The translations under genes were made by a program, and so were the position numbers. From the NCBI GenBank assembly GCA_025455775.1, contig JALOLT010000022.1, forward strand, positions 1-45,063: DNA of 45,063 bases, written 5' to 3'. Position 1 is the first letter of the stretch. The number at the start of each line of letters is the position of its first letter. This document shows positions 5,391-37,631 of the stretch, piece by piece. Under the pieces are notes generated by a model. The model did no database searches, was not told where the DNA came from, and saw only the letters and a program-made list of their open reading frames with translations. The DNA is from Fimbriimonadaceae bacterium (GTDB lineage Bacteria; Armatimonadota; Fimbriimonadia; Fimbriimonadales; Fimbriimonadaceae).

Positions 5391-5539
5391 GGGATAAGGT
5401 TTGCCTCTCGGGGCGTCCGGTCAGTTTAATTCATCTCGCAAGGTACCAGTTCCAGGCCCCCTGGTGAAACCGGTCGTTCGGCAGACGGCGGGATGGAATG
5501 TGTGGTCACAGCTACCCCAGGTATAAGAGGGAGCGGCTC

Positions 5540-7951
5540 ATGGAAAAAATCCTCGTCATTGGGAGTGGCCCGATCATCATTGGGCAAGCGGCAGAGTTCG
5601 ACTACGCTGGGACTCAGGCCTGTAAGAGTCTTCGCGAGGAAGGTTACAAGGTCGTTTTGATCAATAGTAACCCAGCCACGATCATGACGGACGAGGAGAC
5701 GGCGGATGCTGTTTATATTGAGCCCCTGACTCCGGAGTTCTGCGAGAGGGTGATTGCCCAGGAAAGACCAGAAGGTCTGTTGCCAACCCTGGGGGGGCAA
5801 ACGGGACTTAACCTCGCGAGTCAGCTCGCTCAGCTCGGCATCTTGGAAAAATACAATGTGAAGTTGCTCGGGACCCAGCTTGAGGCGATCCGGAAGGCAG
5901 AGGATCGCGAGCTGTTTCGGTCTCTAATGAGGCAGATCAAAGAGCCTGTGCCTGAGAGTTGGATCGTCGAGTCGGAGGCAGACCTCGAAGCCTTGCTCGA
6001 TGTTGTTCCTTTTCCTTGCATCGTGCGCCCAGCCTATACTCTGGGTGGGACAGGGGGGGGAATCGCGCGCAACCATCAGGAACTGTGGGAGATTGGTCGC
6101 AAGGGACTGAAACTCTCTATGCGTTCCCAGCTGATGGTGGAGCGGAGCCTGTTGGGGTGGAAGGAAGTCGAGTATGAGGTCATGAGGGATAGCCGAGGGA
6201 CTTGCATCACGGTCTGTAACATGGAGAATCTGGATCCGATGGGGGTTCATACAGGGGACTCAATCGTGGTGGCCCCGAGCCAGACCCTTAGCGACATCGA
6301 GTACCACATGTTGCGAACTGCCTCGCTCAAGATCATCGATGCCTTGGGAATTGAAGGGGGCTGCAACGTACAGCTTGCGGTGAACCCAGATAGCTTCGAC
6401 TATTACATTATCGAGGTCAACCCTCGCGTAAGCCGATCCTCTGCTTTGGCAAGCAAGGCGACTGGCTATCCGATCGCAAGGGTCGCAGCAAAGATCGCGG
6501 TGGGTAAAACGCTGGATGAGATCGAGAATGCGGTCACGAAAACGACGAAAGCTTGCTTCGAACCAGCGCTTGACTATTGTGTTGTCAAGATTCCTCGCTG
6601 GCCCTTTGACAAGTTTTCGAGTGGGGATCGGAGCCTTTTCACCCAGATGAAAGCGACTGGCGAAGTTATGGCGATCGATCGAACCTTTGAGGCGGCTTTG
6701 ATGAAAGCGATTCGGGGACTTGAAGTCAAGTCAAAGGATCTGCGTCACGATAAGTTCATGGGTTATCGCACAGTCAGTTCGAGTGAGATCCCAGAGGAAG
6801 CTGTGCGGCAGGGAGATTCGCTGGTTTTCACAGTTTGGTTGGATGACGCACTTCCCCCAGAGGTGGCTTTGCCGCTCCTCAGCGAAAGGAAGGCGGAAAT
6901 CGAGAAGGCGAAGAGGCGGGGCGAGGAAGTCTCTTTCGTGCATCGGGTGGCGATGAACAAGCTCGACAGGGTGCTTGATGAAGGGAGAGGCGTGTGTCTG
7001 CTCCGCGATCGGGAAGTGGCGAAGTCCATTGCGGAAACATTGGGAGACCTTCACGGTGTTTTGGCTTATTGCGTGATGCCAAACCACATTCACGTGATGG
7101 CGAGCCCACTTGTCACAGAGTCAGAGGTACGCCAGGCCCTCCATGCCGCAGGTCACGAACTGGTCTGGTCTGACCAGAGCGTTGTACTCCCAGTCGAGGA
7201 CGACGAGACTTTTCGCCACGCCTTAGACTCGATCGAAAGCAACCCAGTCAGAGCGGGGCTCTTTGATTGGCCCTGGCAAACCAGAAACAGCCCTGTGTAC
7301 CGTCGGGCATTGACAGAGGGAAAAATGGCAGACGAGGATTTGCGCCAACACCTGCGATACCCGACTGACGAGCGACTTTGGGCCTTGGCTGAGGCTTTGC
7401 GGCGAGGTTGGGATCACGAGACTGTTTATGAGCTCTGTAAGGTCGATCACTGGTTTCTGCAGAAGCTCACGAACCTCTTGGGGATTGAGCAACGACTGAT
7501 CCAGGCAAAGGAGACTGCGGGCCGCTCGGAGCCTTTGCTCGATTTGGTGAAGGAAGCCTTTTTGATCGGCTTCCCGAGTCCGTCTATCCTGAATCTGATG
7601 GGTTTGACCCCAGGGGTTCAGAAGGCGATTGCTGAGGTCTTGGCCGTGAGTGAGAAGCCGTTGGATGATTTGCCAGAGGAGCCTCCGGTCATGTTGCCGG
7701 GGATTGGGGTTGTTTCTGTGTCTTCGTCTGGCTCGACAGCTCTGAAGGCAATGGAGCGACTGAGAGCGGAAGCCGGTGGCTTGGATCCTGCCTTTTTGAT
7801 GGAGGCGGCAAGGGCTGTGAACCAGGTTAAGGTCGAGCCAGTTTTTAAAATGGTGGATACCTGTGCCGGTGAGTTCGAGTCGGCGACTCCTTATTACTAC
7901 AGTACTTTTGAACAGGAGAACGACTTCTTGGCTGGCTCGTCGCAAGGTTAG
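5540..7951 (+). CDS. carB: Carbamoyl-phosphate synthase large subunit, N-terminal half, with an in-frame RAYT transposase-like domain
   Basis: CarB makes carbamoyl phosphate for pyrimidine and arginine synthesis. Residues 1-400 are the first ATP-grasp half ([50 protein letters not shown]). Residues from about 597 are the oligomerisation domain ([16 protein letters not shown] up to [18 protein letters not shown]), where the frame stops. The second ATP-grasp half and the allosteric domain are absent, so this is a carB1-type half gene; split large subunits are known in some bacteria and archaea. Between the two CarB domains sits about 188 residues that belong to a different family (see the separate entry). 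Start chosen at ATG 5540 because AAGAGGGAG lies just upstream; an upstream in-frame start at 5498 has no family support. The second half is not in this window. Confidence 0.9.
6764..7327 (+). other. RAYT (REP-associated tyrosine transposase, HUH) domain inserted in carB
   Basis: Residues 409-596 of the CarB half do not belong to CarB. They read as a RAYT/Y1-transposase domain: an [15 protein letters not shown] start, a [13 protein letters not shown] segment, the HUH motif in [12 protein letters not shown] (His516, His518) and the NPVRAGL motif. In the usual family motif YIxxNPVRAGL the Tyr is the catalytic nucleophile; here the aligned residue is Ser564 ([11 protein letters not shown]). The stretch from VW to NPVRAGL has the same length as in typical family members, so the substitution is not an alignment slip. 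The helix usually found between HUH and VW is shorter by roughly 20 residues. The frame is continuous on both sides and no terminal repeats are seen, so I read this as a fixed, probably catalytically dead domain. Confidence 0.82.
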
Positions 7952-26300: not shown

Positions 26301-26972
26301 TCAAACTTTCAAATCGCGCATTCCCCAAGTGAGCCCGCTTCGAAAATCGACAAAACTTCTCACGCCGAATTCTGTGTAGCGAATGCGGGCGACGCAGACG
26401 CCTTTTACTTTCCACCCCCGGGCAGAAAAGGCAGGGAAGTCTGGGTTGAACGGGACAAGCTGAGCCGCCTCCCCGTGCCCCCGAAGGCACTTGACTGTGT
26501 CCTCTCCATCGCAATAGGCATGGATTACATCGTTTGGCTTAGCAGCCCGGTTTTCGAACACGGCAATATCTCCCGGAAGAAGCAGGTTTGCCATGGAATC
26601 TCCCTCGACTTTTCGTCCCCATCGCTGAAAGTCGTAGCCCCAGTCTGGGATTTCCTCGTAGTCCACGTCCGCCCACTGTGCCCAGGGGTCTCCGGCTGTA
26701 ATGGTCGCGAGGACTGGAAGCCGACGGAGGCTTCTCCCAATCGCAGCGACGGTTCCTGCTCGCTCTAAGGTCGCAGTTCGCTCCGCCTGTTCTCGCCCCA
26801 GGACGAAGAGCATTTTTTCCCACACTTTGGGGTCGCGAGGTCGTTTCGTAGAGCCTTCCAAAATGTCACTTATTGTGACGTGGTTCACACCGAGTTGCTG
26901 GGAGAGCCACCTTTTGGTTAGGTTCATCGCGAGGAGCATTCGGTTGATTTCTTCAGCACGGGGATCAATCAC
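26301..26972 (-). CDS. Phage CI/LexA-type repressor with S24 peptidase domain
   Basis: A 223-residue repressor. An HTH of the XRE type at about 17-38 (NLTKRWLSQQLGVNHVTISDILEG) is followed by an S24 peptidase domain: a possible Ala-Gly cleavage site at A93-G94 (ITAGDP), Ser126 in VEGDSMA and Lys161 in TVKCL, the Ser-Lys dyad of LexA-type autocleavage. Such repressors hold the prophage silent and are inactivated during RecA-mediated stress. The GTG at 26972 has no strong ribosome site. The gene faces the early phage genes across a short region with operator-like half sites. Start and exact cleavage site are inference. Confidence 0.88.
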   Translation of the reverse strand: MIDPRAEEINRMLLAMNLTKRWLSQQLGVNHVTISDILEGSTKRPRDPKVWEKMLFVLGREQAERTATLERAGTVAAIGRSLRRLPVLATITAGDPWAQWADVDYEEIPDWGYDFQRWGRKVEGDSMANLLLPGDIAVFENRAAKPNDVIHAYCDGEDTVKCLRGHGEAAQLVPFNPDFPAFSARGWKVKGVCVARIRYTEFGVRSFVDFRSGLTWGMRDLKV

Positions 26973-28123: not shown

Positions 28124-28384
28124 ATGGGTTTTTCTTCTGTCAGTGCGCTACTGCGCGAAGTCTTAAGTGAACAAAACGGGGCTAAGGCGAAGGAGATGGC
28201 AAGGAAAGCGGTTGAGATGGCTTGCGAAGGAAACGCGACTCTCTTCCGCGAGATCATCGCCAGAGTCGATGGCCCTCTCCCCATGACCGTTAAACAAGTT
28301 GAACAAATGCCCGACGACGAACTGCTTAAAGAAGCGCTTGCGATCCTCGCAAGCCATGGAGTGAAGCCAGGAGCACTGGAATGA
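28124..28384 (+). CDS. Small phage protein of the RVDG type
   Basis: An 86-residue helical protein. The layout LLREVLSEQ...GNATLFREIIARVDGPLP resembles a small protein common near packaging genes in phages (DUF5681-like; the ...REIIDRVDGK... pattern). Function unknown; a packaging or DNA-binding role is often suggested. Its stop overlaps the endolysin start by ATGA. A strong terminator-like hairpin lies 22 bases after this stop, within the next gene, so this gene may be the last of the early transcript. Confidence 0.6.
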   Translation: MGFSSVSALLREVLSEQNGAKAKEMARKAVEMACEGNATLFREIIARVDGPLPMTVKQVEQMPDDELLKEALAILASHGVKPGALE

Positions 28385-28968
28385 ATCCCAAACCTCAGAA
28401 CGTGAAGACCGGACTCAAGAGTCCGGTCTCTTTTTTATCCGATAGTGTATTTGCCGCCCTGCCTGGGCCAGAGCGCCGTTTGATGGTGCAAAGGTCGTGG
28501 GTCGGAAAGGTGGAGTTACCCTTCAACAGGGGAACCTTTGTCGAACGCATCCTGTCGACTGTTGGCCTTGGGCCAGGGTACGCCTGGTGCGCGGCAGCCC
28601 AGTATTCAGCATCCCTCAACGCGGGAATCGATCCCCGGCTCCTTCCCGGCAAACGCCAGGCAGCAGCCGTGAGCGAGTGGGTGAGGTGGGCCAAGCGCAC
28701 GGGACGACTTCGCAAGACTCCTAAGAGGGGGGATCTCTTTTTCTGGCTCTTGACCACCAAACCTGGCTCTCCCGGCCACATTGGCTCGGTGGCGGAGGTC
28801 TTTGGCAAAGGCGACGAGGCGATCCTCCGCACCTTTGAAGGCAACACCAGTCAGGGAGAGGGGGGGAGTCAGAGAGAGGGTGATGGCTTTTATGAACGTC
28901 GCAGAAGCCTCAGGGCTCTGAAGGGCTACTCCCAGTGGGGGTTTATCTCCCTGGAGGATCTGCCTTGA
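28381..28968 (+). CDS. Phage endolysin with a CHAP-like cysteine peptidase/amidase domain
   Basis: A 195-residue lysin. The core reads as a CHAP-like domain: GYAWCAAAQYS (Cys70), GDLFFWLL, GHIGSVAEV (His133) and TFEGNTS (Asn155), a Cys-His-Asn arrangement that cleaves peptidoglycan peptides. No cell-wall-binding domain is evident and no signal peptide, so it would depend on the holin. ATG 28381 has AGGAG seven bases upstream, so I trust this start even though an intrinsic-terminator-like hairpin (28406-28436) lies inside codons 9-19. A later ATG at 28483 would also give a complete domain. The holin gene starts in the stop codon overlap. Confidence 0.85.
   Translation: MNPKPQNVKTGLKSPVSFLSDSVFAALPGPERRLMVQRSWVGKVELPFNRGTFVERILSTVGLGPGYAWCAAAQYSASLNAGIDPRLLPGKRQAAAVSEWVRWAKRTGRLRKTPKRGDLFFWLLTTKPGSPGHIGSVAEVFGKGDEAILRTFEGNTSQGEGGSQREGDGFYERRRSLRALKGYSQWGFISLEDLP
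28406..28436 (+). terminator. Terminator-like hairpin inside the endolysin frame
   Basis: AGACCGGACT (28406-28415), loop CAAG, AGTCCGGTCT (28420-28429), then C and six T. This is a textbook intrinsic terminator: perfect 10-bp GC-rich stem, four-base loop, U-tract. It lies 25 bases after the endolysin start codon. It could end early transcripts before the late genes, with antitermination or active translation allowing read-through. Confidence 0.8.
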
Positions 28969-29426
28969 GACCTCAGGTAGCGGCTTTGGTTGGCTTTGGA
29001 ACTGCGACAACCGCCCTTCTCGAGTACTTGCTCCCTGGAACCTTGACTGACCAGCTTTTTTGGGCTGGTCTTTGTCTGGTCTTTCTGGACTCGATTAGTG
29101 CCTATCTCGCCGGGCTTCGTCGGAAGGGGCCAGCAATCTACAGCTCAAAGCTCCGAAAGACCGGTGAAAAGCTTGTTGGCTATGGGGTCGCGTACCTTTC
29201 CGTAGTTTTGGCGGCACAGGCCCTCCAAGTGGGGCAGGTCGAGTGGGCAGCAGTCGCGATTCTTTCGTGGGTTGTCTTGACCGAGGCCATCTCGATTTTC
29301 GAAAACCTTGTCGTCGCGGGGGTTCCGATCCCCAAGGGGTTGGTGAAGCTCTTTCGCGCGAAGCTCGACCGCTTTGAGAAGTCGTGCGAATATTTGGAAG
29401 AAGAAGAAACATGCAAGAAGTTATAG
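28965..29426 (+). CDS. Phage holin (family 4-like)
   Basis: A 153-residue membrane protein. Start chosen as TTG 28965, which overlaps the endolysin stop (TTGA) and has GGAGGA six bases upstream. Three or four hydrophobic segments can be seen (about 5-22, 27-42, 68-85, 92-110), with the VFLDSISAYLAGLRRKG and SKLRKTGEKLVGYGVAYL segments characteristic of the phage_holin_4_1 family. It would form lesions in the inner membrane, releasing the endolysin. The C-terminus is charged. The next gene starts within its last 16 bases. Confidence 0.82.
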   Translation: MRPQVAALVGFGTATTALLEYLLPGTLTDQLFWAGLCLVFLDSISAYLAGLRRKGPAIYSSKLRKTGEKLVGYGVAYLSVVLAAQALQVGQVEWAAVAILSWVVLTEAISIFENLVVAGVPIPKGLVKLFRAKLDRFEKSCEYLEEEETCKKL

Positions 29427-29780: not shown

Positions 29781-31088
29781 ATGCCAGCTTGGTTTCATGA
29801 GGGCCAGAGGTTGGCGTGGGAGTCAGATTCCCAGGAGATTGTCGTGTGCAGTGGCACTCAGGGCGGGAAGACAGCCCTCAATGCTCCCTGGCTTTTGCGC
29901 CTGATCCAGCGGACGACTCTTGACCTCTTGCGCCGGCAAGCGATCCCCTACTTTCACACCTTGTTTGTGGAGCGTCACCAGCTCGGGACTCTGATTGGGG
30001 CCGACACAGGGAGGCCGAAGTTTCGATTTTCTGCCGAAGGTGCCGTGCGACTGTGCGGTACTCAAGTCCCGATCGTAGTGCACTTTCTAAACATGGCAGA
30101 TCCCGAATCGAATGAGTCCTTCACGGCTCTTGGGGGGGTCTGGGACGAGGCGGGACAGGCAACAAACAAGGAACTGAGCTTTGAGGCAAACAACCGTCGG
30201 CTGGGAGCAGCTCGCTCCCTTGCCTCTCGGGCAAACATCCCCTATCTGGGCAGCCGACTCTGGACGACCACTCCCTATGACCACACATGGTTCAAGCGCA
30301 GGATCGTTGATCCGGCAATTCGAGGGGATCGCGGTTGTTCGTGGCACAACTGGCCCAGTTGGGCGAACCCAGGAGGAATCAGTGAAGAACAAGCTAGGAA
30401 GGAACTGGAGGGAGGGATGCCGCTTTGGCGGTGGCAAATGATGTACGAAGGTGAATTTACTCGCCCTGCGGGGGCTGTTTATGACTGCTTTACCTCGGCA
30501 AACATCGTGAGGCCCTTCCCAATTCCCAGCAGTTGGCCGCTGGTGGTTGGCATGGACTTTGGTTCAGCAAACCTGGCGGGAGTTTTCGGGGCGATTGATC
30601 CGAGCGACGATTCCATCGTGATCTTCAGCAGCTACTGGGCTGGGAGCGACACATTACAGAAACATGTTGACGTTATGAAAACAAAGGCAGGAAAGAAACC
30701 AAGTCTCGTCGTGGGAGGGGCTCAGAGTGAGTCGAACTGGCGCAGAGACTTCACCGCATTGGATTGGCCGGTCAGAGCTCCGTCGCTTCAGGGCCCCGAT
30801 AGTGTCGAGGCAGGCATCAGCCGAGTCTACGGCCAATTTGCGACGAAAAAGCTCAAGATCTTCTCAGATCTCACGGCTTTGATCGACGAAATCCAAGGCT
30901 ACACCAGAGTCGTGGACGGCGAAGGGAGGGTAACGAGCGTGATCCAGGATAAGTCGAGCTACCACCGCTTGGACGCGTTGCGGTACCTGGTTGGGACTCT
31001 CCGCCCTGGTTCCGGAGCAACCCAGACCCGCCGAACTTCGCGAATATTGGAAGACGAGGAACCCAACGCAATCGGAGGCTTGGTTTGA
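29781..31088 (+). CDS. terL: Phage terminase large subunit
   Basis: A 435-residue packaging motor-nuclease. An adenine-binding FHEGQRLAWES is followed by the Walker A SGTQGGKT (24-31), Walker B GGVWDEAG (D122, E123) and a coupling motif WTTTPYD. The nuclease half starts at VVGMDFGSAN (D259) and ends with YHRLDALRYL near residue 400, typical RNase H-fold metal ligands. The middle acidic residue of the nuclease site is less clear. The frame stays open upstream to about 29674 but has no ATG, GTG or TTG there, so the 103 bases before the ATG are left as untranslated. The next gene begins in the stop (TTGA). Confidence 0.92.
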   Translation: MPAWFHEGQRLAWESDSQEIVVCSGTQGGKTALNAPWLLRLIQRTTLDLLRRQAIPYFHTLFVERHQLGTLIGADTGRPKFRFSAEGAVRLCGTQVPIVVHFLNMADPESNESFTALGGVWDEAGQATNKELSFEANNRRLGAARSLASRANIPYLGSRLWTTTPYDHTWFKRRIVDPAIRGDRGCSWHNWPSWANPGGISEEQARKELEGGMPLWRWQMMYEGEFTRPAGAVYDCFTSANIVRPFPIPSSWPLVVGMDFGSANLAGVFGAIDPSDDSIVIFSSYWAGSDTLQKHVDVMKTKAGKKPSLVVGGAQSESNWRRDFTALDWPVRAPSLQGPDSVEAGISRVYGQFATKKLKIFSDLTALIDEIQGYTRVVDGEGRVTSVIQDKSSYHRLDALRYLVGTLRPGSGATQTRRTSRILEDEEPNAIGGLV

Positions 31089-31663
31089 CCGGCGAACGTT
31101 CCTCTGTCTTGGACTTGGTGCCAGTGGGAGAAGAGATTTTTTCTCTTCCCCCTTGTCGCTACGAACCTTTGCCTGGAAGGGTGGTTTTATCGATGGCAAA
31201 GGGAGAGAGAATTGGTTCGCTCCTGCTCCCTTCGAGTGGCCGGTGCAACCCTGACTTGGCACTGGTTGTGAGGTCGGGGGTTCCGTGGCTTCATCCCGGA
31301 GATCAGGTCTTGGTTCGCCCCTATGTCGGGGCTTGGCTGACCGATGGATTCCGAATCGTCGGAGTACAGGAGTGGGCCGAAGACGCGATTCCCGCCCTGT
31401 GGAAGGCAGGCGAGATTCTCCCTCTTCAAAAGTGGGTCTTGGTGCGGAGGAATCTCTGCTCATGGACCAACCAGTATCTAAAGGAAGGGGTCGTTGTGAC
31501 AGCTGGCCAGGCCTCGCCCGTCAAGCCGGGACAGAAGGCGCTTGTGCCGTTCGAAAAGCTGGAAGCTACTTACGGCCCGCTCACGATTGGCCTTTTTGGC
31601 GACAGAAGTTTGGCCCTGGTTCATGACCCAGTGGCATGGGAGGAAGAGCCTCGTGATGAGTGA
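31085..31663 (+). CDS. Tandem GroES-like protein
   Basis: A 192-residue protein made of two GroES-type modules. The first (about 28-105) has PLPGRVVL, a mobile-loop region with GSLLLPSS, LALVVRSG, then HPGDQVLVRPYVGAWL. The second (about 112-180) has PLQKWVLVRRN, GVVVTAGQ, VKPGQKALVPFEKL and a closing LTIGLFGDRSLALVHD that matches the end strand of GroES. The order (PLxxRVLV, GxVV, PGDxVL) is that of a co-chaperonin. Single GroES-like proteins such as T4 gp31 are known to assist capsid folding. Here the gene lies between terminase and portal, overlapping the first by TTGA and the second by 8 bases. The two-module form is unusual. Not certain that it binds GroEL. Confidence 0.72.
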   Translation: MTGERSSVLDLVPVGEEIFSLPPCRYEPLPGRVVLSMAKGERIGSLLLPSSGRCNPDLALVVRSGVPWLHPGDQVLVRPYVGAWLTDGFRIVGVQEWAEDAIPALWKAGEILPLQKWVLVRRNLCSWTNQYLKEGVVVTAGQASPVKPGQKALVPFEKLEATYGPLTIGLFGDRSLALVHDPVAWEEEPRDE

Positions 31664-33392
31664 TCTGAGGTTCTTTCTGCCAGGTGGCACGGGATTGCTC
31701 AAGGTCTCTCTTTCGGAAGTTCAGGGTCGCAAGGACTTTGCCCACTGGTTGGGTGAGGCAGTCGATCAGGCCTTAGCCGGAAAGGAGCTCTTGCACCGCA
31801 GATGGCGCGTCTTGGAGGCGATGTACCGCAATGAACCGGGTTCGAGCGGCTTTCGCCTCATGAAGAGAGTCGAAATCCACCCTGCGCCACTTATAACTCC
31901 GCGAATCAAACGCATCTCGAACACGGTCTACGCTCAGGTCTTGGCCCCCGACCCTTGGGTTCAGTGTATTCCCGATGAGTGGGGTTCGACCAGAGAGGGG
32001 GCGGTGGAGAAGGGTCTCCAAGCCATCGCGGAGCGGTCGGGATTTCGTGAAACCTTTCGGGATTCGCTGGACATCGCTGGCTGCTGTGGTCAAGCAATTA
32101 TTCGGCGGCGGTTTGTGGCAGGAGAGGGTCTGGAAGACGAGTTGATTCATCCCGCAGACTTTATCGTGAGCCCAACTTACCAGACCGACTTAAGAGAGGC
32201 TCACCTGATGGGACATCGCTTTTACCTGCCAGTTTGGCGGATCGAAGAGCTGAGACGCACTGGTAAGTTCATCTCTGGCCCCTCGCTGGCTGCCTCTTCG
32301 ACAATCGAGCCTTCTGGCCACAGCCAGACTCTCTCGGGAGGAGTCGAAAACCAGAACTCAGAGGAGGATTCCCGCCGACCGGTAGAGCTATGGGAGCTCC
32401 TCGCCATCGTTCAGTTTGAGTCTGGTCCGCAAAGAGTACGGGCAGTGATTTCCGTCGAGTCGCGCCAGCTTCTTTTGGCAGAGATTTACCCTTACGAGGA
32501 GCCTTGGTACTTTGACCTGCGCTACCACAAGGAGTATGGAGTCTGGTGGAATTCGAATTCGGTTGCGAACCTCTTGCAGGGGTTGCAGCACGATTACACG
32601 ATTCTTCACGCCCTCTTAACGCAGGGAACTCTGGTTTCGGCCTTGCCTCCTTTGGTTGTCTCGGGCGGGTTCTTGACGGAGCGTCTCAAGAGCTATGACT
32701 TCGCCGACGTGATTGAGACCGACGTTCCGATTCAGGCTCAGTCTTTGCCAATCAGCTTTCGGCCAGAGACGATTCCAGTTCTCATCGACCAAATTGAACG
32801 TTTGGCAGATGCAGTGACTGGGGTGAGCCAACTCGGAATTAGTCAAGAGCTCCGTCAAGGGACAACCGCGACGGAAGTGAACGTTCTGGCTGCGATTCAA
32901 AAGCAGTCAGAGAACAGCTACCTGAGTTACGCGAGTCAGACCTTGAGTCGCTTGTGGCAATTTGCCCTTGTCTTGGCGAAGCACCACCGGGCGAGTTTTC
33001 TTTCGACTTACGGCCCTGCTTTGCCTCCCGACTTCTGGACAGCAATTCGAAAGATTGCTTCGTACCGATTCTTAGTGAGTGGCGAGAGTGGAAGTGAGAT
33101 TCCCGCCGTTCAGATGCAGAGCCTCCAAACCTTGCTCGCCATGAGCCAAGCCCCCAACTCTGGTCTCGACTACCGGGCAGTTGAGTTGGCAGTGGTGAAC
33201 GCGATGCCAGTCAAATTTGCGACCCAGACGCTTTTCCGCCATGAAGAACCAACCAGAATTTCAACCGAGCCAGGAAGAGGCGAGGGTCCTCGCCTGGCTC
33301 TCCATGCCAGAGGGGAGGATCTTTCGCGAATGGTGCCACCAGAAGGAACAGGTGGCGATTCGGAGCCTTCTCCAAAACCGACCCAGCCCTGA
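31656..33392 (+). CDS. Phage portal protein
   Basis: A 578-residue protein. Start chosen as ATG 31656, with AGGAAGAG upstream, overlapping the GroES-like stop by 8 bases; a longer frame from 31542 would lie inside the GroES-like gene. The segments NLLQGLQHDYTILHALLTQG and IERLADAVTGVSQLGISQELRQGTTATEVNVLAAIQKQSEN are typical of portals of the P22/podovirus type, including the TTATEV motif. It forms the dodecameric ring through which DNA enters. The C-terminal ~60 residues, rich in Pro and Gly, overlap another reading frame and may be dispensable. Confidence 0.85.
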   Translation: MSDLRFFLPGGTGLLKVSLSEVQGRKDFAHWLGEAVDQALAGKELLHRRWRVLEAMYRNEPGSSGFRLMKRVEIHPAPLITPRIKRISNTVYAQVLAPDPWVQCIPDEWGSTREGAVEKGLQAIAERSGFRETFRDSLDIAGCCGQAIIRRRFVAGEGLEDELIHPADFIVSPTYQTDLREAHLMGHRFYLPVWRIEELRRTGKFISGPSLAASSTIEPSGHSQTLSGGVENQNSEEDSRRPVELWELLAIVQFESGPQRVRAVISVESRQLLLAEIYPYEEPWYFDLRYHKEYGVWWNSNSVANLLQGLQHDYTILHALLTQGTLVSALPPLVVSGGFLTERLKSYDFADVIETDVPIQAQSLPISFRPETIPVLIDQIERLADAVTGVSQLGISQELRQGTTATEVNVLAAIQKQSENSYLSYASQTLSRLWQFALVLAKHHRASFLSTYGPALPPDFWTAIRKIASYRFLVSGESGSEIPAVQMQSLQTLLAMSQAPNSGLDYRAVELAVVNAMPVKFATQTLFRHEEPTRISTEPGRGEGPRLALHARGEDLSRMVPPEGTGGDSEPSPKPTQP

Positions 33393-33531
33393 GCTTTGCC
33401 CTTGGATGGCAGAACTTCGGGCCCAGGCAAGGGTCTTTTCTCGACTCAAGGACTCTGGCGATCTTGCCAGGGTCCTTGCTACTTTTCTCCACCCCATAGA
33501 TGATGAAAAACGAAACACACCCAGAGATTGA
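33241..33531 (+). CDS. Small phage protein overlapping the portal end
   Basis: A 96-residue frame starting at ATG 33241, 152 bases inside the portal gene in another frame. The translation (PSQEEARVLAWLSMPEGRIFREWCHQKEQVAIRSLL, then VFSRLKDSGDLARVLATFL) has the alternation of small helices typical of a short phage protein found between portal and scaffold. No ribosome-binding site is clear. Alternatives are a start at 33304 or no gene. The downstream scaffold-like gene begins in its last 32 bases. Confidence 0.55.
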   Translation: MKNQPEFQPSQEEARVLAWLSMPEGRIFREWCHQKEQVAIRSLLQNRPSPELCPWMAELRAQARVFSRLKDSGDLARVLATFLHPIDDEKRNTPRD

Positions 33532-33997
33532 ACAATCCGATTGGGATGAAATTTCCCCAGCGGAGCTCGTTCGGTTCGCTGTCCGCGAAGCGGTCGAAGA
33601 CGTGATCTCGCCCCTCGCTGAGCGGCTCGCCCGACTCGAAGCTCAGGCTGGTTCGGCAGGCCTAGCGGAGCGCATTGCGCAAGATGCTGGAGTCCCGGAG
33701 GCGGCGGAGGGCCTGCGCTCTTTGCTTGCCCGATTCGATGACCCAACTCTTGCGGAAGTCTATGACTCTGTTCCTGCGATGAAGGAACTGCTTCAGACCG
33801 CAGCGCGCGAAGTTGCCAATGGCTTACGCGATAAGTCACCGATCCCACAGGCAGAAAAGGTCTCCGGCGAAGGTCAAGAGGCAGCCCTTCCGAGGGGCTA
33901 TGACTCGATGAGCAAAGCCTTTGATTCGATGGCAAAGGATCAGGGCCTGAATCTCAACTTCCGCAAGATCTTTCGCGATTCCCTTAACAAATCCTAA
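33500..33997 (+). CDS. Probable scaffolding protein
   Basis: A 165-residue acidic, helical protein between the portal and the capsid region. It has heptad-like stretches (LAERLARLEAQAG, LLARFDD) and a C-terminal basic/aromatic patch (FRKIFRDSLNKS) resembling the capsid-binding end of phage scaffolds. No sequence motif defines the family, so the call rests on composition, size and position. The start (ATG ATG at 33500/33503) has no ribosome site and probably depends on coupling from the previous gene. Confidence 0.5.
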   Translation: MMKNETHPEIEQSDWDEISPAELVRFAVREAVEDVISPLAERLARLEAQAGSAGLAERIAQDAGVPEAAEGLRSLLARFDDPTLAEVYDSVPAMKELLQTAAREVANGLRDKSPIPQAEKVSGEGQEAALPRGYDSMSKAFDSMAKDQGLNLNFRKIFRDSLNKS

Positions 33998-34896: not shown

Positions 34897-35838
34897 ATGA
34901 TTCAAACTATTGCCACAAATCCAGAACTGGCTCGCGTGGGCCTTGCAGCTGTCGTACCAGCCTTTCAATCGAAACAAACGACCTTTTTCCAAATGCTTAA
35001 AGCGCAGAAGATTGCGACGAAGCAGCAGTTTGAACGCTTTACTCAAGAAGCGGATCTGATGCTGGCCCCAGTTGTGAATGAGGCTCAAGGGATCCCGACT
35101 CAGCAGATGGAGACTTATAACCAAAAGGACTACCATTGGCGAAAGAGAGGCCTGGGGGTTATGGTCAGTCGTGAAAAGGTTGAAAGTGACCAATACGGCG
35201 TCTTTACCCTCTCCAATATCGGCAAGAAAATTGCCAAGGCGATGAATCAGACCGAGGAGGTTTTAGCTGCAAATCGGATCAACTTTATGACGAGTTCAGC
35301 TACAGAAAATCTAGGGTTGGACGGATCGCCCTTGTGCTCCAGTATCGGACTGGGAGGAGGACACCCTCTGGAATCAGGCGTTGGCAACAACCGCGGCGTT
35401 CTGGTAAATGGAATTTATGTGGATGTCTTACCCAGCTATAACGCCCTGATGATGGCGACAGCTGAACTGATGGGCCAAGTGAGCCACAAGGGCCTTCCGA
35501 TGCCTTCGGCAGGTCCTTATCGGATCATTTGCAGCAGAAACTACAAGTGGGTCTTCGATACAATCGTCGGGAGTACTCAGAGAGCTCAGACGAGCGATAA
35601 CGATAAGAACGTCGCGATAGATCTGATTAGTCAGGTGTATTGGAATCCTTATCTGACATCTCCTGGTTCGTGGGGCCTTCTCGCCGAAGACGCTGACGTC
35701 TTTCACCGATTGACTTTCGGAGGTAAAACGTTTGAAAGTGAATACGTTAAGGGGAAACAAGTCTACGCTTATTACGCAACCGAAGTCTATGAGTATGGCC
35801 ACCGTGACTGGCGCGGATTCTGGGGAACCACTCCATAA
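34897..35838 (+). CDS. Major capsid protein (HK97 fold)
   Basis: A 313-residue protein following the decoration-like gene. The N-terminal helix (residues 1-45), the SREKVESDQYGVFTLSNIGKKIAKAMNQTEEVLAANRINF segment and the C-terminal SPGSWGLLAEDADVFHRLTFGGKTFESEYV segment fit the capsid fold of podovirus-like and siphovirus-like phages: long spine helix, then beta-rich P and E domains. No prohead protease is seen; a scaffold-dependent assembly is implied by the upstream acidic protein. Confidence 0.82.
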   Translation: MIQTIATNPELARVGLAAVVPAFQSKQTTFFQMLKAQKIATKQQFERFTQEADLMLAPVVNEAQGIPTQQMETYNQKDYHWRKRGLGVMVSREKVESDQYGVFTLSNIGKKIAKAMNQTEEVLAANRINFMTSSATENLGLDGSPLCSSIGLGGGHPLESGVGNNRGVLVNGIYVDVLPSYNALMMATAELMGQVSHKGLPMPSAGPYRIICSRNYKWVFDTIVGSTQRAQTSDNDKNVAIDLISQVYWNPYLTSPGSWGLLAEDADVFHRLTFGGKTFESEYVKGKQVYAYYATEVYEYGHRDWRGFWGTTP

Positions 35839-36348: not shown

Positions 36349-36993
36349 ATGGATCAGTGGCTTCTTCCTTTCGCATCCTTCGCCACGGGGTTTTGGAGGC
36401 CTGATCCCCCTGGTTTCTCCATCGCCCAAAACCTTGCCAAGACCGCTCCGGACGATTTGTCCGGAGCGGTCTTTTCCTTTCTCGAACCAGGTGTGACTCC
36501 AGTGTCCTCGTCACCGTTTGACCTGAACGTCACTCTGAACCCAATCCCTTCCTTGCCCCAATCCTCCACCTTATGGTTAAGGCTTGGCGAGGGGCTTGGG
36601 GTCGTTTTGGTTCAGGTCTTTACCGGGGATGAAGAGTGGGGTTCCTGGTTTTTGTCCATCGGAAACGCCCTCGAGACTCACATCTTGAGTCACCCGAAGC
36701 TGCTCCCCCCCGGAGAGGAGATCACCGTGGTGGTGAGGCCCCTCGCAGGAATGAAAAGTTTAAGGGTGACCTGGTTGGCGATCCGGCAAGCCGAGGGCGA
36801 TCCGTCGAGATTCGAAGAGAGCCCTTATCACCTGGATCAAGGGGGAAGGGGGCGTTTCAATCCCCAAGGTGAGGGCTCCTTTTTGCAGCCCAGGCATCCC
36901 GAATCACCTCCTCCCAAAACTTGGCCTTGGGGGGCGAGTCACGACTTCTTTCGGCCAAGTCGACTCCGCGAAGACGGGGATAACAGTCCATGA
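36349..36993 (+). CDS. Unknown phage protein with a terminator-like hairpin in its frame
   Basis: A 214-residue protein I do not recognise. AAAGGAG lies 11 bases before ATG 36349. Residues about 31-42 are encoded by a strong hairpin (36439-36473). The C-terminal half is rich in Pro, Gly and charged residues. It could be a neck or tail accessory protein. The stop overlaps the adaptor start as ATGA. If the true start is downstream of the hairpin, the nearest in-frame alternative (GTG 36493) has no ribosome site, so the full-length frame is preferred. Confidence 0.55.
   Translation: MDQWLLPFASFATGFWRPDPPGFSIAQNLAKTAPDDLSGAVFSFLEPGVTPVSSSPFDLNVTLNPIPSLPQSSTLWLRLGEGLGVVLVQVFTGDEEWGSWFLSIGNALETHILSHPKLLPPGEEITVVVRPLAGMKSLRVTWLAIRQAEGDPSRFEESPYHLDQGGRGRFNPQGEGSFLQPRHPESPPPKTWPWGASHDFFRPSRLREDGDNSP
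36439..36473 (+). terminator. Terminator-like hairpin within a phage frame
   Basis: AAGACCGCTCCGGAC (36439-36453), loop GATTT, GTCCGGAGCGGTCTT (36459-36473): a perfect 15-bp stem. The T run is TTTTCCTTT. The outer ends (AAGACCG / CGGTCTT) resemble those of the endolysin hairpin. It separates the head region from the tail region and would give polarity or conditional read-through. Confidence 0.72.
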
Positions 36994-37631
36994 CAGTATC
37001 TGAAGCAATCGACCGCGCGCGGCTCACTTACCCTGAAATGCTAGCTCCCCAGGCCCTCGTTTACCTGCAAGAAGTCGTTCGGGACGTCTTGCAAGACGTA
37101 AAAGCGGAGCGAACGAAAATCCAGATTGATGTTTCCCCGGGGGAGAGCCAGTACCTTCTTCCCCAGGGGACTTTGTCTGTTTGGACAGCCGCCTATGTGG
37201 CAGGAGTTGGTGATGCCTGGAGTCTTCGGTGTACAACCGAGGAGGAGCTGGATGACATTGAACCCCTGTGGCGGGAGCTTGCCTTAGAGGCGGAGCCTCG
37301 ACTCTTTTTCGTTTCTGGCTCCAAGATCTGGCTCTATCCGGCACCCCAAAGCCCAACCGTAGCAGGATATCCCCGCTTGGTGCTCTCGGCAACCGTCGCT
37401 CCAACGCTCACACCCACAACTTTGCTCCCCACGATCTTGGATGGTGGAGCTTACGTGGAGGGAATCAAGGCTAAGTACGCCAGCGATCTGAGGCTAGAGG
37501 CCAAGGAAGTTCACGAGCTCGCTTACATTCGGGAGAAGGAAAAGGCGATTCTTGCCGAACGGCGGAGACAACCAAACGGGCCTCAGGGCTGGAGAGGGAA
37601 CTGGGTCAATGGCCAAAGGGGGATCGTTTGA
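36990..37631 (+). CDS. Phage head-tail adaptor-like protein
   Basis: A 213-residue protein. The N-terminal VSEAIDRARLTYPEMLAPQALVYLQEVVRDVLQDV helices, then beta segments including KIQIDVSPGESQYLLPQG, then SGSKIWLYPAPQSP and a C-terminal helix (VHELAYIREKEKAILAERRR). This resembles the gp4/gp11-type adaptor (tail tubular A) proteins that attach the tail to the portal in podoviruses. Start overlaps the previous stop by ATGA. Adaptor function is by order and fold type. Confidence 0.62.
   Translation: MTVSEAIDRARLTYPEMLAPQALVYLQEVVRDVLQDVKAERTKIQIDVSPGESQYLLPQGTLSVWTAAYVAGVGDAWSLRCTTEEELDDIEPLWRELALEAEPRLFFVSGSKIWLYPAPQSPTVAGYPRLVLSATVAPTLTPTTLLPTILDGGAYVEGIKAKYASDLRLEAKEVHELAYIREKEKAILAERRRQPNGPQGWRGNWVNGQRGIV

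Follow-up and report, generated by a model that had tools for sequence, protein, structure and literature searches.

From the GroES homology of both modules of a single protein chain (in sequence and in fold), the state of their loops and roofs, the order of the genes and a strict co-occurrence with a portal gene, we infer that the open reading frame at 31085–31663 of the window (the whole stretch of DNA that was analysed, 45,063 nt) probably encodes a prophage-borne accessory co-chaperonin. The protein would assemble into a ring-like cap that docks on GroEL and serves phage morphogenesis proteins, with the portal protein as the most plausible client. The first-pass annotation of this DNA had read two consecutive GroES-type modules in one chain between terminase and portal; it had offered either a cofactor for host GroEL or a structural protein with a borrowed fold, and had named structure prediction, a profile search and a comparison with the host groES as checks.

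Gene order in the prophage

The leftmost 26 kb of the window hold ordinary bacterial genes. A prophage in this chromosome of an uncultured member of the Armatimonadota extends from about 26.3 kb, with genes for a repressor, an endolysin, a holin, the terminase large subunit (TerL), the GroES-like protein, portal, a probable scaffold, capsid, adaptor and tail; the contig end falls inside it. Its features include the following:

26301–26972, minus strand: prophage repressor (HTH and S24 peptidase)
28381–29426, plus strand: CHAP-type endolysin and holin
29781–31088, plus strand: terminase large subunit (phrog_2, 4.5e-20)
31074–31078, plus strand: ribosome-binding site GGAGG, 6 nt 5' of the TTG start, from the sequence
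31085–31663, plus strand: tandem GroES-like protein gene (192 aa, 21.1 kDa, pI 5.3), with orthologues at seven further loci
31656–33392, plus strand: portal protein (578 aa, 64.4 kDa; phrog_1216, 1e-6)
33500–33997, plus strand: probable scaffold protein (phrog_9857, 0.012, a weak match)
34897–35838, plus strand: major capsid protein (34.8 kDa; PF25209, 3.3e-7)
36990–37631, plus strand: SU10-type head-tail adaptor (PF24175, 1.7e-15)

The GroES-like frame lies between terL and the portal gene, as the first-pass annotation had placed it, and we judge it to be a real gene of 192 codons. It overlaps both neighbours: its TTG start at 31085 shares the letters TTGA with the terL stop, and its own stop codon (31661–31663) overlaps the portal gene, whose ATG is at 31656, by 8 nt. 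The host genome has two complete groES-groEL operons (C27 and C58), indicating that the phage gene is an addition and not a replacement; a substitute for a missing host GroES is thus ruled out. The same two host groES genes weigh against a co-chaperonin, in that they leave the need for an extra one unexplained; the operons also supply the GroEL partner twice, which speaks for one.

Two other frames in the window deserve mention. The phage ORF 41352–42956 (plus strand) encodes a long, charged N-terminal region and, at its C-terminus, a VanY-type D,D-carboxypeptidase domain; the product is possibly a virion-borne peptidoglycan hydrolase. ORF 5498–7951 (plus strand; 817 aa) is carB-like and has a long gap between its ATP-binding D2 and oligomerisation D3 domains, as placed by Pfam. 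Relative to E. coli CarB, this gap is presumably ~190 residues longer than usual; it contains, in frame, a ten-residue stretch followed by ESNPVRAGL, which by eye recalls REP-associated tyrosine transposases. The frame ends after D3, so the second half of CarB lies elsewhere.

The two GroES modules

As a single sequence, the protein gave nothing useful against Pfam, PHROGs or the PDB, and tblastn against 50,697 phages returned chance matches only. Likewise, with E allowed up to 10, tblastn of the relatives and portals against phages gave nothing beyond chance matches, scans of viral contigs with the protein and its relatives found no relatives, and a first scan of genome contigs gave no match; alignments A2 and A5 proved too divergent for scanning by pattern. 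A second genome-contig scan, with alignment A4, recovered the contigs of two relatives; the homologues emerged from genomes of the same family as the source genome. Four tandem relatives (L029–L032) match Pfam Cpn10 (PF00166) above the curated cutoff in two stretches each, with E from 6.5e-12 to 1e-7, and the relatives match the PHROG co-chaperonin GroES (phrog_3188), which the protein alone does not. It is therefore through its orthologues, and not by a Pfam match of its own, that the protein belongs to the GroES/Cpn10 family. The GroES-like domain of alcohol dehydrogenases was rejected, as the PF08240 match in L031 is weaker than that to Cpn10 and stands lower in the structure ranks.

A profile of the family led to ordinary host GroES in most of 85 family genomes (80 with a match), by way of module 1 in some genomes and of module 2 in others, and its best matches in the PDB were the tandem chloroplast co-chaperonins Cpn23/Cpn20 (5.9e-12). 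Compared with a host GroES profile by hhalign, the module 1 profile scored 2.7e-13 and the module 2 profile 7.7e-13, whereas the two module profiles matched each other more weakly than either matched host GroES (2.9e-10). The profile search thus reached Cpn10/GroES through the relatives and the family profile, with the single sequence silent.

In a chance test, the protein was left out of its relatives' module profiles and its scores were compared with those of shuffled sequences. Module 1 scored 47.1 bits against the relatives' module 1 profile, with 7.1 for the best of ~900 shuffles, and module 2 scored 9.2 bits against the module 2 profile, with 5.2 for the best of ~800; chance resemblance of motifs as the source of the GroES likeness is thereby ruled out. 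Module 1 is certain to be GroES-like. In the relatives module 2 is clear too, but in this protein it is strongly diverged and is identified by colinearity with the relatives and by the predicted fold. The features of the chain, all on the plus strand, are as follows:

31085–31159: N-terminal extension (residues 1–25) before the first barrel, by alignment; a similar N-terminal motif occurs in the relatives' extensions
31160–31402: GroES module 1 (residues 26–106), by leave-one-out score, predicted fold and hhalign
31196–31255: mobile loop of module 1 (residues 38–57), AKGERIGSLLLPSSGRCNPD
31220–31228: tripeptide LLL, counterpart of the GroEL-binding IVL of GroES (ILL in host GroES)
31280–31294: roof hairpin of module 1, reduced to the five residues VPWLH
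31415–31660: GroES module 2 (residues 111–192), diverged, by alignment, predicted fold, hhalign and leave-one-out score
31451–31483: mobile-loop remnant of module 2, NLCSWTNQYLK (11 residues), lacking the hydrophobic tripeptide

The relatives' Cpn10 matches, the family profile and the predicted fold agree with the two consecutive modules of the first-pass annotation. All the motifs that it quoted are present; one of them, GVVVTAGQ, is however the strand that follows the module 2 mobile loop and not the loop itself.

The AlphaFold model of the protein fits Cpn20 over residues 22–187 as one rigid body (Z 10.6; rmsd 3.2 for 146 residues). Its mean pLDDT is only 65.7, which weighs against the co-chaperonin reading. 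The L031 model is better (pLDDT 79.6), with a Z of 11.7 to Cpn20 and of about 8 to 10 to many GroES structures. For both models the best Foldseek and VIA-align matches are Cpn20/GroES, supporting a GroES beta-barrel, and no other fold, in either module; T4 gp31 appeared only in the structure match lists for the protein and not among its sequence matches. The low-confidence stretch inside module 1 coincides with the mobile loop in both models (residues 39–55 here and 52–62 in L031), as expected of a flexible loop.

Set beside host GroES, module 1 keeps the tripeptide (GSLLLP here, GGILLP in the host), the roof is lost in both modules (five residues in module 1 and six in module 2, versus 16 in the host), and the module 2 loop is lost. 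In all eight family members the module 1 loop has a glycine with hydrophobic residues after it, and in most a proline as well; seven of the eight have a module 1 roof of five or six residues, the exception being L034, which has an insertion there. The module 2 loop is kept in L029–L032, is weaker in L034 and is reduced in the protein studied here, with the tripeptide gone. Module 2 is absent altogether from L033 and L071.

Pairing with the portal gene and proposed role

Among 291 Armatimonadota genomes, the GroES-like phage gene was found in seven and the portal gene in exactly the same seven, at eight loci each, and the two adjoin at seven of the eight. TerL is the upstream neighbour, by PHROG match, in the prophage studied here and at L033 and L071; it is probably upstream at L030–L032, by eye and with no PHROG match, and lies on the other strand at L029. 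The GroES-like gene is a constant part of this Armatimonadota phage group, accompanying all eight portals. The remark in the first-pass annotation that such a gene would be unusual in a short-tailed-phage gene set was thus half right: it does not hold within this group, nor for Cellulophaga crAss-like podoviruses, which also have the gene.

Some of these loci show features of their own. L030 and L032 belong to two prophages of the group in one genome (G077), with tandem GroES proteins that are 69% identical; dN between them is 0.26 and dS is saturated, and purifying selection was seen only for these relatives. Their terL genes are apparently split over several ORFs. At L071 (G076:C49, 5080–6776) the portal match is in two pieces with an in-frame stop, while the single-module GroES-like gene is open; given the broken portal homologue, this prophage may be defective. 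At L034 (G005:C25) the tandem gene carries a 38-residue stretch at the module 1 roof position and lies beside a 1451-aa ORF, ~8 kb from the portal gene; this locus is a rearranged or decaying prophage. Elsewhere, Fimbriimonas ginsengisoli Gsoil 348 has a 45.5-kb prophage whose excision was seen by PCR (PMC4072686).

In a portal tree with all forks supported, drawn with a midpoint root for display only, the prophage is sister to the pair L033 and L071, which have one module only, and the tandem L029, L031 and L032 stand apart. These data would fit descent from a tandem ancestor, with one branch in the course of losing its second module, the rooting not being certain. A tree of the modules, which did not include those of Cpn20, was too weak to decide between duplication and recruitment of a second GroES as the origin of the tandem.

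In the proposed mechanism, chains with two GroES barrels each would build a ring-like cap, for example from four chains (eight modules) or from three chains and one host GroES. The cap would dock on host GroEL by way of LLL, the module 1 tripeptide; module 2 would supply a barrel and ring contacts, with no GroEL-binding loop. Without roof hairpins its opening would be wider than that of host GroES, as in T4 gp31, and the roofless cap would help phage morphogenesis proteins to fold or assemble. The portal, product of the gene that follows and overlaps, would be the most plausible client, favoured by that overlap, by the strict co-occurrence, by its size relative to a GroEL-GroES cage that accommodates about 60 kDa (PMC5780408), and by the requirement of the lambda portal protein B for GroES/EL (PMC3224144). 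The reason that applies in T4, a 56-kDa capsid protein, does not transfer, because the capsid protein here is not oversized.

Two further findings weigh against a co-chaperonin. The first is the loss of the module 2 loop together with the weak profile match of that module; the second is the mismatch between an even number of modules and seven-fold GroEL, although Cpn20 tolerates it (PMC5780408). GroES concatamers of six or eight modules also function, with either an unoccupied site or a spare module (PMC5780408), and since these and Cpn20 work, even-numbered GroES assemblies do work with GroEL.

Of the two readings in the first-pass annotation, the co-chaperonin appears the better, judging from the module 1 loop motif kept in all eight members, and it is unlikely that the GroES fold was recruited here as a head structural or assembly factor, such as a portal-associated ring or an assembly chaperone independent of GroEL. 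The position of the gene, its translational overlaps with terL and the portal gene and its strict portal co-occurrence would suit such a factor, as would the N-terminal extension outside the GroES fold, the missing module 2 loop of this protein and the complete lack of module 2 in L033 and L071. A structural role would not, however, require the GroEL-binding tripeptide of module 1, which persists in eight of eight members at roughly 25–40% overall identity. A weak negative comes from Cellulophaga phage phi18:3, where the genes marked as structural from mass spectrometry of virions do not include the tandem GroES.

We consider it improbable in the extreme that the protein redirects or inhibits host GroEL, as a cap short of loops that would compete with host GroES and divert folding from host proteins: one loop per two barrels and a host that has its own GroES twice would agree with this, but the gene sits in a morphogenesis operon and not among early takeover genes, and most relatives have loops in both modules. 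Equally improbable is that the gene is decaying, losing the second loop first and the second module later, since against the divergence of module 2, the loss of its loop and the single-module sister group stand an open frame, a good ribosome-binding site, tight overlaps kept on both sides and a well-conserved module 1.

With a double GroES of its own, the virus may be equipped to fold its shell proteins. More speculatively, this prophage lineage, and in parallel crAss-like phages, might have evolved an even-numbered, roofless double co-chaperonin, coupled to the portal by gene overlap, as a dedicated cap that makes host GroEL a portal-folding machine, with two-loop tandem, one-loop tandem and single module as successive states; we regard this broader scenario as possible but doubtful. 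In plastid-type organelles, the pairing of an even number of modules with a seven-fold chaperonin still awaits an explanation, and phage versions that occupy one operon position with two loops, one loop or just one module form a natural series for testing it. The strict pairing with the portal likewise opens to direct testing the GroEL/GroES requirement of phage portals, which is long known but poorly understood (lambda B, PMC3224144).

Comparison with known co-chaperonins

Cpn20/Cpn23 of chloroplasts and apicoplasts resemble the protein most closely, with a pair of GroES modules joined head to tail in a single chain, and are its best PDB profile and structural matches. Cpn20 cooperates with GroEL and can stand in for GroES in E. 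coli (PMC3542282), and tandem co-chaperonins have been treated as a chloroplast/apicoplast speciality (PMC5780408, PMC3542282); the open-access literature found describes them only from plastid-type organelles, with no account of a tandem co-chaperonin from phages or bacteria, though phage proteins of this kind have database entries under plain names. Unlike Cpn20/Cpn23, the protein is phage-encoded in bacteria, within a morphogenesis operon and with no transit peptide; identity is only about 20%, the roof hairpin is gone from both modules and the second loop is lost. Convergence with Cpn20 is likely, the module tree being too weak to decide, and a plastid origin is unlikely on taxonomy.

T4 gp31 and the single-module phage co-chaperonins (phrog_3188) share with the protein a phage-encoded, roofless GroES fold and a presumed role in folding head proteins. 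The absence of roof loops from gp31 is believed to let it cover a larger substrate, and its mobile loop has 22 residues versus 16 in GroES, by the count of the same source (PMC6318259). By contrast with gp31, which has one module, forms a heptamer and has the longer loop, the protein has two modules, a loop that is not lengthened, a gene beside the portal gene and a small capsid protein to accompany it.

A tandem GroES in a phage is not unique to this prophage. Foldseek against viral models led to phi18:3, in which gp096 (KC821620.1, 41458–42060; 200 aa), annotated as chaperonin cpn10, matches Pfam Cpn10 with its second half, is GroES-like by eye in its first half, and lies upstream of TerL (gp098) and portal (gp099), one gene away. 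The same phage carries a second, single-module GroES, gp080. Podoviridae ctfjg026 (MW202828.1, 31782–32345; UOF82516) has the same arrangement, with a tandem GroES-like gene upstream of TerL and portal. Both phages, as Pachyviridae, count as crAss-like; their tandem proteins are annotated as plain cpn10 or as hypothetical. A0A516LTQ1 and A0A516LJK4 are possible further phage tandem GroES proteins.

These crAss-like proteins (phrog_13932) resemble the one studied here in size (about 190–200 aa), in their two GroES-like halves and in their closeness to TerL and portal. They differ in that theirs precedes TerL whereas ours lies between TerL and portal, and in that the clear GroES match of phi18:3 is module 2 whereas the clear module here is module 1. 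The sequences are barely related, with no tblastn match between the Armatimonadota group and the crAss-like tandem proteins, and the TerL and portal families of phi18:3 and ctfjg026 differ from those of this prophage, indicating that a tandem GroES beside TerL and portal occurs in at least two phage lineages. Host GroES (C27 and C58), finally, has the same fold and a similar loop tripeptide, but is a single module with a full roof, encoded beside groEL.
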